DNA of 64,000 nucleotides, taken from positions 5,785,447 to 5,849,446 of the forward strand of contig NZ_CP043538.1 of the NCBI RefSeq assembly GCF_000364445.2, given 5' to 3'. Shown here piece by piece: positions 48,393-61,068 of the stretch. The notes below the pieces were generated by a model. It searched no databases, was not told where the DNA came from, and saw only the letters and a program-made list of their open reading frames with translations. Each line of letters opens with the position of its first letter. Position 1 is the first letter of the stretch. A program made the position numbers and the translations under genes. This DNA comes from Methylobacterium mesophilicum SR1.6/6 (lineage in GTDB: Bacteria > Pseudomonadota > Alphaproteobacteria > Rhizobiales > Beijerinckiaceae).

Positions 48393-49142
48393 CTAGGTGG
48401 TGGGCCCGTAGGGCGGACGCGGGATCGCCCGGTGCGCGGCCCGGAGCGCCGCTGACCAGCGCTCGCGCAGGTCGTGGAAGTAGCCCTCTCCGGCCTCGAT
48501 CCGGTGATTCACCTCCAGCGTCAGCGCGTTCCGGCGCGCCACCGCGATGTCGATCGGCAGGCCGACACCCAGGTTCGACCGCATGGTCGAATCCATCGAG
48601 ACGAGGCTGACCTTCAGGGCGTCGTAGAGGTCGGTCGTATACTTGACGGCCCGGTCGAGGATCGGCTTGCCGTACTTGTGCTCGCCGATCTGCAGGAACG
48701 GCGCGTCCGTGCTGCACTCGATGAAATTCCCCGCCGAGTAGATCAGATACAGCCGCATCTCGCCGGTCCCGATCTGGCCGCCGAACAGCAGCGAGATCGA
48801 GAAGCGGATGTTGGCCGCCTCGAACCCGTCCTTCTCGATCGACCGCACCCGGCGGATGGCCCGGCCGATGAGCTGCGCCGCCTGGAACATGGTCGGCGCC
48901 TCGACGAGCTTCTGAGACGGCTCGCCGTCCTCCTCGCCGGGCACCCCCTCCTGCAGCAGGCTGAGGACCGACTGGGTGATCGACAGGTTGCCGGCCGAGG
49001 CCAGCATCATCACCCGCTCGCCCGGCACGTTGAAATGATGCAGCTTCCGGTAGGTTGAGATGTCGTCGAGCCCCGCATTGGTGCGGGTATCGGCGACCAT
49101 CACCAGACCGTCCTCGACCAGAACACCGACGCAGTAGGTCAT
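48393..49142 (-). CDS. Anbu: proteasome-type (HslV-like) protease
   Basis: This is a 249-residue Ntn-hydrolase of the bacterial proteasome-related family Anbu (COG3484). After Met removal the N-terminal nucleophile would be Thr2 (MTYCVGVLVEDGLVMVADTRTN; the ADTRTNAG turn is the family equivalent of the proteasome beta-subunit motif), and the lysine partner lies in the RKLHHFN segment. It is the last gene of the ATP-grasp / alpha-E / transglutaminase / Anbu cluster on the minus strand, with 44 bases after the transglutaminase stop. Anbu assembles into oligomers in other bacteria, but its natural substrates are unknown. It probably degrades products made or modified by the upstream genes. Confidence 0.9.
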   Translation of the reverse strand: MTYCVGVLVEDGLVMVADTRTNAGLDDISTYRKLHHFNVPGERVMMLASAGNLSITQSVLSLLQEGVPGEEDGEPSQKLVEAPTMFQAAQLIGRAIRRVRSIEKDGFEAANIRFSISLLFGGQIGTGEMRLYLIYSAGNFIECSTDAPFLQIGEHKYGKPILDRAVKYTTDLYDALKVSLVSMDSTMRSNLGVGLPIDIAVARRNALTLEVNHRIEAGEGYFHDLRERWSAALRAAHRAIPRPPYGPTT

Positions 49143-49186
49143 CGTCTTCAGGCTCTCGTGCGGCCGGCGGACCGGTGTCGGAACGA

Positions 49187-50014
49187 TCAGGATTGGGCGG
49201 CGGCCCTGCCTTGCTCGACCCGGAGCTTCACGTCCAGTGTCTCGGTGCCGCCGCCGGTGCGGCTGCCGCGGATCGGCGCCGCGCCGAGGTAATCCAGTCC
49301 GGTCGCCACGCGGATGTAGTTGTCCGACGGGCTCACGTCGATGCAGGGGTCGAACGCCACCCAGCCGAGATCGGGCACCAGGGCCTCGACCCAGCCGTGC
49401 GGCGCCTCGACCTCCGCCTGCCCGTCGTCGCGGGCCCGGTAGCCCGCGACGTAGCGGGATGGGATGCCGATATGGCGGGCGGCGGCGATGAAGACGTGAG
49501 CCAGATCCTGGCAGACGCCCGTTCCCGCCGCGAAGGCCTTGGCGGCTGGGACAGCACTGGTGGCGGGCCCCGGCTCGTAGGTGACCGCGCCGTGGACCGC
49601 GCCCATCAGACGATGGAGCAGGGCCAGGATCGCGGCGTCCCCGTCCGTGGCGACGCGCTCGGCGAAGGCGTGCAGCTCCGGGCTGGCGGCGCACAGGTCC
49701 GTGTCGCGCAGGAAGAACTCGTCCGGCAGGCGCTCCACCGTGCCGCGCACCACGCCGTGGGTGTCGTCGGTGTCGACCTCGCCGGTGACCCGGATGGTCA
49801 GGGCGTCGGCCGGTTCGTCCGGGGTGAACCAGTGCACCTTGTTGCCAAAGCCGTCCTCGCGGGCGGTGAGGCGCCCGTCGACCGTGGTGTCGATCCGCCA
49901 CGTGCGGACATACTGGCCGTCATGGTCCCGGGGCGTCAGGCGCAGGACCTGCACCAGTCCGCGGGCCGGTTGCTCGTAGGTGTAGATGGTCTCGTGGACC
50001 ACGCGGATGCGCAT
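49187..50014 (-). CDS. Transglutaminase-like cysteine protease
   Basis: This is a 275-residue protein with the bacterial transglutaminase-like N-terminal region (RVVHETIYTYEQPARG, LRLTPRDHDGQ) and the core domain. The catalytic triad is intact: Cys168 in GTGVCQDLAHVF, His206 in APHGWVEAL and Asp222 in FDPCID. It has no signal peptide. Such proteins cleave or form isopeptide bonds. It lies directly between the alpha-E and Anbu genes and is a standard partner in this conserved cluster. An inverted-repeat region of ~120 bases separates it from the alpha-E gene. Confidence 0.9.
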   Translation of the reverse strand: MRIRVVHETIYTYEQPARGLVQVLRLTPRDHDGQYVRTWRIDTTVDGRLTAREDGFGNKVHWFTPDEPADALTIRVTGEVDTDDTHGVVRGTVERLPDEFFLRDTDLCAASPELHAFAERVATDGDAAILALLHRLMGAVHGAVTYEPGPATSAVPAAKAFAAGTGVCQDLAHVFIAAARHIGIPSRYVAGYRARDDGQAEVEAPHGWVEALVPDLGWVAFDPCIDVSPSDNYIRVATGLDYLGAAPIRGSRTGGGTETLDVKLRVEQGRAAAQS

Positions 50015-50042
50015 GCGCCGAGCCTGTGCGTGTTCGTCAGAG

Positions 50043-50081
50043 CATCATCCCGGCCGGTGGCTGCCGGGCTTCGGGATGATG
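50043..50081. repeat. Palindrome upstream of the transglutaminase gene
   Basis: Perfect 10-bp arms CATCATCCCG/CGGGATGATG (50043-50052 / 50072-50081) enclose a smaller CCGG-based hairpin. It lies just upstream (minus strand) of the transglutaminase start. It could be an extragenic palindrome or a regulatory structure. Confidence 0.5.
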
Positions 50082-50099
50082 ATGCACAATCGAGAGGCT

Positions 50100-50138
50100 G
50101 AGGCGCCGGCCCGGATGCCGCATCCGGGCCGGCGTCTC
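50100..50138. repeat. Long near-perfect hairpin at the alpha-E stop codon
   Basis: 18-bp arms with one mismatch (50100-50117 / 50121-50138), loop of three bases, overlap the TGA stop codon of the alpha-E gene. It is very GC-rich and stable, so it would form a strong structure in RNA and may limit read-through into the transglutaminase gene. No T-run follows on the minus strand. Confidence 0.6.
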
Positions 50139-51084
50139 AACCGACCAGATACTGCTTGGCGATCGCCTCGCCCACCCTGTTGTTCTCGGCGATGAACGCC
50201 TCCACGAACTCGTGCAGCCCCGTGGCGAAGACCCGGTCGATGTCCTCGCCCTCAAGTTTCGCCAGCATGTTGCCGGCGAGCCGCTGGCTCGGGCCGCGGC
50301 GGCCGTAGGCATCGGCGATGAGGTCGAGATACTCGACGATCACGCCGTAGCAGTTCGAGAAGGAGCGCGGCATCTGCTTGTTGAGCATCAGAAGGTCGGC
50401 CACCAGCAGCGGCTTGATGCTCTCCCGGTAGACCCAGTGATAGGCGTTGAAGGCCGAGACCTCGCGCAGGATCGTGGTCCACTGGAAGTAGTCGAGGCTG
50501 CCGCCCACCGTCTCGTCGTGCGGCAGCAGAATCTGGTACTTGACGTCGAGGATGCGGGCGGTGTTGTCGGCACGCTCGATCGCGGTGCCGAGGCGGGTGA
50601 ACCAGAAGGCGTCGTTGCGCAGCATCGTCCGGAAGGCCGAGCCGTCGAAGGTCAGCGAGACGGTCTTCACCCAGTCGAGGAAGCGGCCGAACTCGTCGCG
50701 GTTGAGGTCCTTGCCGGCGTAGTTGCGCAGTTCCAGCCACGCGCCGTTGATCGCGTCCCACATCTCTGTGGTGAGCGCGGTGCGCACCGAGCGGGCATTC
50801 TCGCGGGCCGCCTCGATGCAGGAGCGGATCGAGGACGGATTGTGCGGGCTGAAGGCCAGGAAGTCGCAGACCGTGTCGGCATTCACCGCGCTGTAATGGG
50901 TCTTGAACGCGTCCGCGTCGCCGGCCGAGGCGAGGGCGGAGTCCCACTCGTTGCTCTCGCCGCCGCCGTAGCTCGACGGCAGCGAGGCGAAGCGGTGCGC
51001 CGCGTCGAGGATGCGGGCGACGAAGTCGGCGCGCTCGACGTAGCGGGAGAGCCAGAAGAGGCTGTCGGCAGTCCTGGAAAGCAT
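50137..51084 (-). CDS. Alpha-E domain protein
   Basis: This is a 315-residue all-helical protein of the alpha-E (DUF403) family, with the diagnostic N-terminus MLSRTADSLFWLSRYVERAD and an inner DEFGRFLDWVKTVS segment. Alpha-E proteins always pair with circularly permuted ATP-grasp enzymes and are thought to act as partners in peptide synthesis. It begins 65 bases after the ATP-grasp stop and ends inside a long hairpin. No catalytic motif is assigned to it. Alternative fusions of the two families exist; here they are separate. Confidence 0.9.
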   Translation of the reverse strand: MLSRTADSLFWLSRYVERADFVARILDAAHRFASLPSSYGGGESNEWDSALASAGDADAFKTHYSAVNADTVCDFLAFSPHNPSSIRSCIEAARENARSVRTALTTEMWDAINGAWLELRNYAGKDLNRDEFGRFLDWVKTVSLTFDGSAFRTMLRNDAFWFTRLGTAIERADNTARILDVKYQILLPHDETVGGSLDYFQWTTILREVSAFNAYHWVYRESIKPLLVADLLMLNKQMPRSFSNCYGVIVEYLDLIADAYGRRGPSQRLAGNMLAKLEGEDIDRVFATGLHEFVEAFIAENNRVGEAIAKQYLVG

Positions 51085-51149
51085 TGTCTTTCAGCCAAAT
51101 CGCGTGGAGACCGAACGCCGCGCCGTGAACCACCCTGACGTCAGCGACA

Positions 51150-52583
51150 TCAGGCGTCGAGCACCCAGGTATCCTTCGTCCCGCCGCCCTGGCTGGAGTT
51201 GACCACCAGGGAGCCCTCTTTCAGCGCCACGCGGGTCAGGCCGCCCGGCACGATGCGGATCTGGTCGGCCCCATTGAGCACGAAGGGCCGCAGATCGACG
51301 TGGCGCGGTGCCACGCCGGAGGCCACGAAGGTCGGGCACGTCGAGAGCGACAGGGTCGGCTGGGCGATGAAGCCGTCGGGGGCGTGGCGGAGCTTCTTGG
51401 CGAAGTCATCGAGCTCGCGCTTGCTGGCGTGGGGGCCCACGAGCATGCCGTAGCCGCCCGAGCCGTTGACCTCCTTCACCACCAGCTCCGACAGGTTGTC
51501 CATCACGTACGCGAAAGCGTCCTTCTCGCGGCAGCGGTAGGTCGGCACGTTGTGCAGGATCGGCTCCTCGCCGGTGAAGAACTTCACGATCTCCGGCATG
51601 TAGCTGTAGACGGCCTTGTCGTCCGAGATGCCGGTGCCGACCGCGTTGGCCAGCGTTACGGAGCCGCGCTCGTAGGCGTTCATCAGGCCCGGCACGCCCA
51701 GCACCGAATCCGGGCGGAAGACGAGGGGATCGAGGAAATCGTCGTCGAGGCGGCGGTAGATGACGTCGACCTTCCGCGGACCCTCGGTGGTGCGCATGTA
51801 GACCACGTCGTCCTTGGTGAAGAGGTCGGACGCCTCCACCAGCTCGACGCCGAGCTTGTCGGCCAGGAACGAGTGCTCGTAGAACGCCGAGTTGTAGCGC
51901 CCGGGTGTCAGCAGCACGACCGTCGGGTCACGGGTCGCTGAGCCCGGGGCAAGGCTCCGCAGGGTGGCGAGCAGCGCATCGGGGTAGTTCTCCACCGGCG
52001 CGACGCGGTGCTTCGAGAACAGGTCCGGGAACAGGCGCAGCATCACCTCCCGGTTCTCCAGCATGTAGGAGACGCCGGACGGGATCCGGGCGTTGTCCTC
52101 CAGCACGAAGAAGTCGTTCTCGCCGGTGCGGACGATGTCGATCCCCGCGATGTGGACGTAGAGGTCGTGGGGCACCCGGAAGCCGCGCATCTCCATGCGG
52201 TAATGGGCGTTGCGATAGACCAAGTCGGCGGGGATGATGCCGGCCTTGATGCACTCTTGGGCGCCGTACACGTCCTTGAGGAACAGGTTGATGGCGGTCA
52301 CCCGCTGCTTCAATCCCCGCTCCAGGAAGGCCCATTCCGGCTTGGTGATCACCCGCGGGATGATGTCGAACGGGATCAGGCGCTCGGTCGATTCGTTGTC
52401 GCCATAGACCGCGAAGGTGATGCCGATCCGGCGGAACAGCAGCTCCGCTTGGCTGCGGCGGGTATTGAAATGCTCGGGCGGCGTCGAGTCGAGCCAAGCC
52501 TTGAGCTGGCCGTAGGCGTCGCGGACGGCGGCCGGTTCGGCGGCGTCGATGCCGTTCATCTCGTCGAAGGCCGTCACCGCCAT
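51150..52583 (-). CDS. Circularly permuted ATP-grasp enzyme
   Basis: This is a 477-residue protein of the CP-ATP-grasp type 2 (DUF404/407) family. Landmarks are the RRIGITFAVYG and RLIPFDIIPRVI segments, then YRMEMRGFRVPHDLYVHIAGIDIVRT (in part), LEDNARIPSGVSYMLENREV and VVKEVNGSGGYGMLVGP, a glycine-rich ATP loop. Such enzymes ligate amino acids or peptides with ATP, predicted to make a small peptide or peptide tag. ATG 52583 has a GGAGGAG ribosome site. It is the first gene of the four-gene cluster with alpha-E, transglutaminase and Anbu. Confidence 0.91.
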   Translation of the reverse strand: MAVTAFDEMNGIDAAEPAAVRDAYGQLKAWLDSTPPEHFNTRRSQAELLFRRIGITFAVYGDNESTERLIPFDIIPRVITKPEWAFLERGLKQRVTAINLFLKDVYGAQECIKAGIIPADLVYRNAHYRMEMRGFRVPHDLYVHIAGIDIVRTGENDFFVLEDNARIPSGVSYMLENREVMLRLFPDLFSKHRVAPVENYPDALLATLRSLAPGSATRDPTVVLLTPGRYNSAFYEHSFLADKLGVELVEASDLFTKDDVVYMRTTEGPRKVDVIYRRLDDDFLDPLVFRPDSVLGVPGLMNAYERGSVTLANAVGTGISDDKAVYSYMPEIVKFFTGEEPILHNVPTYRCREKDAFAYVMDNLSELVVKEVNGSGGYGMLVGPHASKRELDDFAKKLRHAPDGFIAQPTLSLSTCPTFVASGVAPRHVDLRPFVLNGADQIRIVPGGLTRVALKEGSLVVNSSQGGGTKDTWVLDA

Positions 52584-52679
52584 CTCGCTCCTCCCGTACG
52601 CTCCCGCTCTTGAGGCAAGAGGCGCGCCACGCCGTCATGGCTATATCCGCGCTCGACAACGCTCAAGCCGGCTGGAGGA

Positions 52680-53426
52680 TCAGATCAGCTTCAGGCCTTT
52701 CAGGCTCGCATGTCCGTTTCGGCCCAGGATCACGTGGTCGTGCACGACGATCTTCAGCGGCGCCAGCACGGCGACGATCTCACGGGTCATCGCCACGTCC
52801 GCCGTCGAGGGGGCCGGGTCACCCGAAGGATGGTTGTGGGCCAGGATGATCGCGGTCGCCGAGAGCTCCAGCGCCCGGCGGGCGACCTCGCGCGGATAGA
52901 CCGGGGTGTGGTCGACCGTGCCGCGCCCCTGCACCTCGTCGGCGATGAGGTGGTTGCGCTTGTCGAGGAACAGGACGCGAAATTCCTCGCGCGACGCGAA
53001 GGCCATGGTGACGCGCAGGTAGTCGTGGAGGGCGGACCACGAGTCGAGCAGGGCGCGGTCCCGGATCGCCCCGCGGGCGAGTCTCCGGGCGGCGGTCGCG
53101 ATCACCTTGAGGTCCGAGGCGACCCCGGCGCTCACGCCGTCCACCTCCATGAGGCGGGCGGGCTCGGCGCTGAGGACTTCGGCGAAGCTTCCGAACCGGG
53201 CGACCAGCGCCTTGGCCAGCGGCTTGACGTCCCGCCGCGGGATCGCCCGGAACAGCACAAGTTCCAGCAATTCGTAATCCGGAAGCGCGTCGCCGCCTGC
53301 GGCCGCGAACTTCTCACGCAGGCGATCGCGGTGGCCGTGATAGTGCGGCGGCTCCTTCTCGACGGATGCCGGGACGGCGCTGTCGGCGAAGAGACCCGCC
53401 TCACCGTCCTCCGTCCGCGGCGTCAC
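52680..53426 (-). CDS. radC: RadC-family JAB domain protein
   Basis: This 248-residue protein has an N-terminal helix-hairpin-helix ([27 protein letters not shown], in part) and a C-terminal JAMM/JAB domain with the zinc motif [14 protein letters not shown] (H-x-H, S, D) and the upstream Glu in SREEF. Despite its name it is not clearly a repair protein; a protease-like or nucleic-acid role is unresolved. It starts at GTG 53426, six bases after the map stop, so it is cotranscribed with map. An isolated nearby position to the Anbu cluster on the same strand may be coincidental. Confidence 0.9.
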
Positions 53427-53432
53427 GGCCGG

Positions 53433-54260
53433 TCAGGCGGCCGGATTGACGGGCTGGTGCAGCCCCTTGGGCGAGATCGTGAAGATCTCCACGCCGGTCT
53501 CGGTGACGGCCACGGTGTGCTCGAACTGGGCTGAGAGTGAGCGGTCGCGGGTCACGGCGGTCCAGCCGTCGCCCAGCACCTTCACGGCGGGGCGCCCGAG
53601 GTTGATCATCGGCTCCACCGTAAAAAACTGGCCGGGCTTGAACGGCACATCGTAGCTCGCCTCGACGTAGTGCAGGATCGTCGGCGCGTCGTGGTAGGTC
53701 CGCCCGAGGCCGTGGCCGCAGAAGTCGCGCACCACGGAGCATCGCTCGCTCTCGGCATAGCTCTGGATCGCCCGGCCGATGTCGTTGGTCGAGCCGCCGG
53801 GCTTGACCGCCGCCACGCCGCGCATCAGCGCCTCGTAGGTGATCTCGCACAGGCGCTGCGCCTTGCGCGGGACCTCGCCCACATAGGCCATCCGGCTCGA
53901 ATCGCCGTGCCAGCCGTCGAGGATCAGGCAGATGTCGAGGTTGACGATGTCGCCCTCGCGCAGGGGCTTGTCGTTGGGGATGCCGTGGCACACGACGTGG
54001 TTGATCGAGGTGCAGATCGATTTCGGATAACCACGGTACAGCAGCGACGCCGGGTAGGCGCCGTGATCCATGGCAAATTCGTAGGCGAGCTTGTCGAGCG
54101 CCTCGGTGGTGACGCCGGGCTGCGTGGCCTCCATGAGCAGGTCGAGGGCCTCGGCCGTGAGGCGACCCGCCCGGCGCATGCCTTCGAATCCCTCGGGCCC
54201 GTGGATCGGCGGCTCCGGGGCGCGGCGCGTGCCCTGCGCGGTGGCCTGTTCCTGCTGCAT
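53433..54260 (-). CDS. map: Methionine aminopeptidase, type I
   Basis: This enzyme removes the N-terminal methionine from nascent proteins. All five metal ligands are identified: Asp109 (NLDICL), Asp120 (HGDSS), His183 (CGHGLG), Glu216 (TVEPMI) and Glu247 (QFEHTV), with the spacing of E. coli MAP. Length 275 includes a ~20-residue Gln/Ala-rich N-terminal tail. ATG 54260 is used; the open frame extends far upstream without support. It shares a transcript with radC. Confidence 0.96.
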   Translation of the reverse strand: MQQEQATAQGTRRAPEPPIHGPEGFEGMRRAGRLTAEALDLLMEATQPGVTTEALDKLAYEFAMDHGAYPASLLYRGYPKSICTSINHVVCHGIPNDKPLREGDIVNLDICLILDGWHGDSSRMAYVGEVPRKAQRLCEITYEALMRGVAAVKPGGSTNDIGRAIQSYAESERCSVVRDFCGHGLGRTYHDAPTILHYVEASYDVPFKPGQFFTVEPMINLGRPAVKVLGDGWTAVTRDRSLSAQFEHTVAVTETGVEIFTISPKGLHQPVNPAA

Positions 54261-54474
54261 GGTTGGGACTTTTCGCGGCGTCGTCTGAGGGTCGTCCGCC
54301 CTATGTACGGTGTGGCGCGCGGCAGGCCAAGACGCGCCGGACCGAGATGCGTGACGCCGTCGGCGGGCGAGGCTTGCGCCGGTCGCGGGGCTGGCGGCAT
54401 AAGCGGCCGCAAGGCGCCCGGGAGCGCGCGGGCAGATTCGCCGCGCGGTCGGTTGCGAGGCAGGCGAGGGCCGG

Positions 54475-54732
54475 ATGGCAGGCAAGGCGGTACCGCACTT
54501 CCACAATGAGCCGGGCGTCCCGGTGATCACCGTGGGCGTGAAGGAGTTCATGTGCATCGGCGCGCTGCCGCCGTTCGATCATCCGCACGTGTTCCTCGAC
54601 ATGGGCGCGGACAACGAGATCATCTGCCAGTACTGCTCGACGCTCTACCGCTACCGCGCGGGCCTGAAGGCCGACGAGGCGGAGCCGCACTCGTGCGTGT
54701 GGCACGACGACGCCAAGCTCGCGGCGGAGTAG
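54475..54732 (+). CDS. Zinc-finger domain protein (zf-CHCC family)
   Basis: This is an 85-residue protein homologous to the zf-CHCC/NDUFS6 zinc-finger family of alphaproteobacteria and mitochondria. The conserved block HVFLDMGADNEIICQYCSTLYRY has the CxxC pair; an upstream Cys (FMCIG) and nearby His residues (DHPHV) complete the ligands. The family is linked to complex I assembly in mitochondria; the bacterial role is not settled. It is divergent from map across ~215 bases and is followed after 12 bases by the monooxygenase gene. Confidence 0.87.
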   Translation: MAGKAVPHFHNEPGVPVITVGVKEFMCIGALPPFDHPHVFLDMGADNEIICQYCSTLYRYRAGLKADEAEPHSCVWHDDAKLAAE

Positions 54733-55971: not shown

Positions 55972-56058
<87 letters not shown>

Positions 56059-60871: not shown

Positions 60872-60951
60872 CTCCGCGGATTGCCGCCGCGGGGATCGGG
60901 CCGTGCGCTTCTGTGAGAAGCTGTGGCCTACCCTGCGGGCGGCCGCGGTCC

Positions 60952-61050
60952 AATCCCTACGCCGGTATGAGCCGGATCAGGTTCAAAGGATTTCCGCGCC
61001 GCAGGTCCTGACGGACGTGCCAGCGGTTTCTCAGCCCCTTGCCGGGGATC
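60952..61050 (-). ncRNA. TPP riboswitch (THI element) upstream of thiOSGE
   Basis: On the minus strand, CTGAGA (61034-61029) is followed by CCTTTGAACCTGATC (60989-60975) and then TACCGGCGTAGGGA (60967-60954), the conserved THI-box core. The outer P1 strands GATCCC (61050-61045) and GGGATT (60957-60952) pair. A GC-rich variable P3 lies between. The expression platform appears to be a hairpin (CCGCGG at 60892-60887 with CCGCGG at 60879-60874) covering the GGAG just before the thiO start, so TPP likely blocks translation. Confidence 0.93.
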
Positions 61051-61068
61051 TCCCTGGAACGGGTACAG

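Follow-up and report, generated by a model that had tools for sequence, protein, structure and literature searches.

A conserved sigma54-type promoter footprint upstream of the four-gene Anbu operon of Methylobacterium mesophilicum SR1.6/6

Introduction

The families that make up the Anbu operon, namely a circularly permuted ATP-grasp ligase, an alpha-E protein, a transglutaminase-like protein (TG), and the proteasome-like protein Anbu, frequently co-occur in one operon (PMC5666114), and the published examples contain these same four families in a conserved order, with Thr1, Asp17, and Lys32(33) in Anbu (PMC5666114, PMC6376114). The present study concerns one such operon in Methylobacterium mesophilicum SR1.6/6, whose genome is a single 6.56-Mb contig, within a window of 64,000 nucleotides (nt; NCBI RefSeq assembly GCF_000364445.2, contig NZ_CP043538.1, positions 5,785,447 to 5,849,446 of the forward strand). 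An earlier note, made from the letters of this window, had stated that the families co-occur, which is in print. The four-gene operon has already been described, and the locus is an ordinary further case of it; what our analysis adds is a sigma54-type footprint in Methylobacterium, and our literature search found no publication describing such a footprint at a Methylobacterium Anbu operon.

The operon PP_2685-2688 of Pseudomonas putida, in which Anbu, TG, and ATP-grasp are named and a nitrogen-responsive promoter precedes the ATP-grasp gene (PMC7801951, PMC8050072), corresponds to that of Methylobacterium; PP_2687 is taken to be alpha-E from its position. On nitrate versus ammonium, log2 fold changes of 4.44 for PP_2685 (proteasome beta subunit) and 3.99 for PP_2688 (circularly permuted ATP-grasp) were reported, and a PP_2688 promoter reporter was induced 3.7-fold upon nitrogen depletion (PMC8050072). 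Under nitrogen limitation, wild-type expression rose 14.66-fold for PP_2688, 11.04-fold for PP_2687, 12.61-fold for PP_2686, and 1.12-fold for PP_2685, with NtrB/NtrC as the putative regulator (PMC7801951). Burkholderia cenocepacia I35_5080-83, which shares the ligase, alpha-E, and TG families and for which the available portion of the source names no Anbu, is listed as sigma54- and NtrC-dependent (PMC5491218). The published data, of which the P. putida induction had been overlooked in the earlier note, suggest that nitrogen shortage switches the operon on, and the nitrogen and sigma54 links are therefore not new.

The four genes and the upstream site

All four genes lie on the minus strand, contiguous and in the order ATP-grasp, alpha-E, TG, Anbu, with intergenic gaps of 65, 122, and 44 nt. 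The first encodes the ATP-grasp ligase (51150..52583; 477 amino acids (aa); PF14403/PF04174), which matches Pfam CP_ATPgrasp_2 (E 9.4e-165) and, over residues 17-475, the solved structure 3n6x (E 6.6e-202); it is followed by alpha-E (50137..51084; 315 aa; PF04168 over residues 1-313, E 4.9e-95) and by TG (49187..50014; 275 aa), in which Bact_transglu_N (E 5.6e-23) and Transglut_core (E 8.9e-21) were found. Anbu (48393..49142; 249 aa) matches Pfam Proteasome (E 2.4e-6), and five distinct solved Anbu sequences align across nearly its full length (E 1.1e-77 to 1.7e-59). Its start at 49142, chosen from homology, places a Thr next to the initiator Met, and once the Met is removed the active-site residues T1, D17, and K32 are present; among 150 Anbu sequences, the window's included, position 1 is T in 149 and S in one, while D17 and K32 are each found in 150/150. 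The open reading frames (ORFs), families, and residues confirm the four intact genes reported by the earlier note, and its description of a complete Anbu operon, belonging to a system with unsolved product and substrate, was likewise borne out. By Anbu, the closest named relatives are Methylobacterium. Two features set the locus apart from the published operons: the 122 nt with palindromes that separate alpha-E from TG, absent in the nearest species, and the sigma54-type footprint reported here.

Sigma54 promoters follow the consensus TGGCACGN4TTGCW, and a putative -24/-12 site of this type, TGGCGCGCCTCTTGCC (52614..52629, minus strand), which had escaped the first reading, begins 46 nt before the ATP-grasp ATG within the 96-nt gap separating radC and the ATP-grasp gene. 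It scores 10/12 against this consensus, and the -24 GG and -12 GC are both present at the 10-nt distance of a sigma54 promoter. The upstream scan, in which GG and GC were demanded, covered the 300 nt upstream of the ATP-grasp gene at the 62 named loci where its start was usable and returned a site of at least 9/12 in 50 loci (5.1 in shuffles), at least 10/12 in 41 (0.68), and at least 11/12 in 16 (0.02). By group, sites of at least 9/12 stand at 25/25 Methylobacteriaceae loci, 0/10 Bosea-like loci, and 25/27 others. Across the 25 Methylobacteriaceae loci, mean column identity is 0.90 within the site versus 0.47 before and 0.54 after it, TGG and TTGC are invariant, and the same columns are fully conserved in a MAFFT alignment built without the motif scan. 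In a phylum sample (199 genomes, among them the one studied here and four of its genus), 17 of the 55 upstream regions from outside the genus reach at least 10/12, with 1.05 expected.

Alternatively, the ligase might make a small peptide that TG and Anbu then mature or recycle, independently of nitrogen, the sigma54-like site being incidental. Iyer et al. 2009 put forward a peptide-synthesis system (as cited in PMC5666114), and many operon-bearing lineages have no sigma54-type site; we nevertheless consider this explanation unlikely, as the conservation of the footprint far exceeds shuffles and the P. putida operon is induced by nitrogen limitation.

The transglutaminase-like protein

The window's TG carries a complete Cys-His-Asp triad (C168, H206, D222), as the earlier note had read; the residues stand, but the weight placed on them does not. 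We compared the near-full-length TGs found at Anbu-bearing loci, 124 in all with that of the window and after removal of truncated or stop-containing sequences. Residue 168 is C in 102 of them, P in 9, A in 6, G in 6, and S in 1, the Cys being absent in 22/124, and H206 and D222 are kept in 124/124. At Anbu-less loci the Cys is missing in 5/33 TGs, with H206/D222 in 33/33. Among the 120 listed database proteins nearest one Cys-less TG, the Cys is replaced in 30 (27 G, 2 S, 1 A), 11 of these 30 contain zero cysteines, and G166, D170, H206, W208, and D222 are present in 120/120. A TG tree was built from 83 rows with column 168 masked; it requires 4 changes (bootstrap 4-5) for the Cys-less state, one of them in L035 and L047, the sister clade to the window's own, and its grouping of Bosea with Salinarimonas is weakly supported (90/59) and subject to a long-branch warning. 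The ratio of nonsynonymous to synonymous substitution (dN/dS) of TG remains low.

Judged by this tree, relatives have lost the Cys on at least four occasions, and we read the pattern as selection that retains the His/Asp pair, with a thiol that would be optional in some lineages. Given this repeated loss beside kept H206/D222 and low dN/dS, a complete triad says little about the mechanism of TG; a limited literature search showed no report of Cys loss in an Anbu-operon TG. The loss cautions against presuming that TG is a cutter and singles out Anbu as the hydrolase worth trapping, and naturally Cys-less TGs are available for comparison.

As a separate observation, neither the sigma54-type site nor the TG Cys is present at any of the ten Bosea-like loci (L059, L061, L063-L068, L074, L097), and a different conserved block lies upstream of them. 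L061 is a genome bin labeled Methylobacterium whose TG groups with Bosea, and the label is probably wrong.

Distribution of the operon

In the phylum sample, Anbu was found in 76 of 199 genomes and alpha-E in 115, with 75 genomes carrying both, one Anbu alone, 40 alpha-E alone, and 83 neither. Gene content is beyond chance, because 75/76 Anbu-bearing genomes also carry alpha-E, and Anbu seems to have been added to a core that contains alpha-E. Anbu is accordingly widespread and its structures are solved, yet no substrate was found in the literature searched. The four genes are contiguous and in order at 101 of the 151 fetched Anbu loci (80 named and 71 from the phylum sample); the remaining 50 include contig-end cuts, rearranged arrays, and Anbu genes with none of the other three in the vicinity. 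The genome's own paralogous locus (L124:2738-9463; C1 ~206.7-213.5 kb) shares the ATP-grasp, alpha-E, and TG families but has no Anbu; it encodes a large TG protein, a fused ATP-grasp/alpha-E (846 aa), and a TG that retains its Cys.

No fifth conserved gene emerged among the 77 intact loci (L033-L057 left out), where the best-shared flank matches 24 others, or from a clustering of ORFs of at least 80 aa, and no gene for an AAA+ unfoldase, the partner that marks HslUV and proteasome systems, was found at the Anbu locus, to which this search was confined. Both results bear on the hypothesis, already in print (PMC6376114), that the ligase, together with TG, tags or crosslinks proteins and Anbu is a small proteasome or de-tagging enzyme. 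Anbu is indeed a proteasome/HslV homologue by its Pfam and structure matches. Without a conserved tag or unfoldase gene near the operon, and with fold relatives of the ligase that act on small molecules, tagging and degradation has in our view a low probability.

Proposed function

We propose that the four-gene module is read from the sigma54-type promoter before the ATP-grasp gene, probably within the nitrogen-limitation response. ATP-grasp with alpha-E would couple a carboxylate, activated as its acyl phosphate, to an amine (peptide- or polyamine-like), a chemistry modeled on the fold relatives glutathione synthetase and glutathionylspermidine synthetase; TG would bind this conjugate and may also cleave or transfer it in lineages that retain the Cys; and Anbu would hydrolyze an amide bond via its N-terminal Thr. 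The net result would be amide conjugates formed and broken under nitrogen shortage, recovering or storing nitrogen. Our computations establish the gene content, the residues, and the conserved promoter-like footprint, and induction under nitrogen limitation has been demonstrated by others in P. putida; the use of sigma54 here, the reaction, the substrate, and the division of labor among the proteins are what we infer. To the explanation as a whole, a four-gene Anbu module driven by a sigma54-type promoter that makes and breaks amides in the nitrogen-limitation response, we give an even chance; its regulatory part, a nitrogen-limitation module, is probable, and its chemical part, ligation and hydrolysis of amide conjugates, is tentative and less likely than not. 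The ATP-grasp protein of the Yersinia operon released phosphate from ATP (PMC6376114); identity to the ATP-grasp ligases glutathione synthetase, glutathionylspermidine synthetase, and YgiC is 7-12%. The footprint indicates a condition to examine, ammonium limitation, in an easily grown genus.

A more specific version, possible though doubtful, is that TG is not essentially a cysteine hydrolase or transglutaminase and works via His206/Asp222, by binding the conjugate or by thiol-free chemistry, with Anbu as the module's hydrolase and the whole a sigma54/nitrogen-controlled amide cycle. A TG that acted via His206/Asp222 without an enzyme thiol could lose its Cys repeatedly.

Several observations weigh against the proposed nitrogen-controlled amide chemistry. 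Regarding its regulation, 38 of the 55 phylum loci have no site at 10/12 or better, nor does any of the ten Bosea-like loci at 9/12 or better, and the strict form TGGCNCGN4TTGC occurs 23 times in the organism's own genome versus 33 times for a reversed control; with no enrichment over the control, the motif alone therefore proves nothing. A simple NtrC-type dyad pattern, sought by pattern search and not with a full model, was not found within 500 nt of the operon, the Anbu-less paralogous locus has no sigma54-type site within 400 nt, and of two P-II genes taken as a positive control, one has a near site that lacks the -12 GC and the second has no site. In P. putida, an rpoN mutant kept the induction (PP_2688 19.61, PP_2687 16.02, PP_2686 14.16, PP_2685 1.45; PMC7801951), which speaks against simple RpoN dependence and leaves such dependence doubtful there; urt gene induction was also retained in that mutant, and wild-type Anbu rose by only the 1.12-fold given above (PMC7801951 Table 2). 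Regarding the chemistry, a shared ligase fold is no proof of reaction, and Yersinia Anbu is described as without detectable peptidase or amidase activity and without specific binding to its operon partners (PMC6376114).

One rpoN match was found. The ORFs downstream of all 23 strict sites were inspected and 10 were picked for family scans, comprising UrtA (urea-type), DctA, a flagellar hook-type protein, two family-5 and one family-3 solute-binding proteins, an ATP-binding cassette (ABC) ATPase, a DUF2628 protein, a DsbA-like protein, and one unmatched ORF; most of those strict sites also fall within long open frames and are therefore at most candidate promoters.

Palindromes and neighboring features

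Two palindromes lie between alpha-E and TG on the minus strand, as the earlier note had seen: hairpin A (50096..50142; arms 50096-50118/50120-50142, 91% complementary), which overlaps the alpha-E stop codon, and hairpin B (50043..50081; arms 50043-50052/50072-50081). Their arms and folds bear out the reported strength (RNA z-scores of -6.96 and -3.60 versus shuffles), and hairpin A has two-sided changes at 5/14 pairs among five related sequences (window, L010, L011, L034, L036), where paired-change shuffles for the whole structure give 2.2 and 9/500 reach the observed value. The strong folds and paired changes favor the note's suggestion that the palindromes split the operon into differently expressed halves. 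We judge such a device quite improbable, given that the nearest relatives (L004-L009, L033, L044) have 21-22 nt and no hairpins at this junction, that stems of at least 9 bp show no preference for it (17, 12, and 16 of 101 loci at the three junctions), and that no terminator-like T run was found. The absence of the palindromes in the nearest relatives and the similar stem frequency elsewhere mark them as a dispensable insert and not a core part; perhaps they stabilize RNA in this strain. A gap of at least 100 nt, of any sequence, needs 10 changes on a 50-locus tree.

Directly upstream of the operon lies radC (52680-53426, minus strand), and beside it a gene (53433-54557, minus strand) that we take to resemble methionine aminopeptidase. 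These genes accompany the operon at 31 and 30 of the 80 named loci, respectively, and at 0/71 phylum loci, and are therefore probably chance neighbors. Elsewhere in the window are a tRNA-Leu (TAA) gene (55972-56058, plus strand) and a thiamine pyrophosphate (TPP) riboswitch (60936-61064, minus strand; Rfam RF00059, 57.9 bits).
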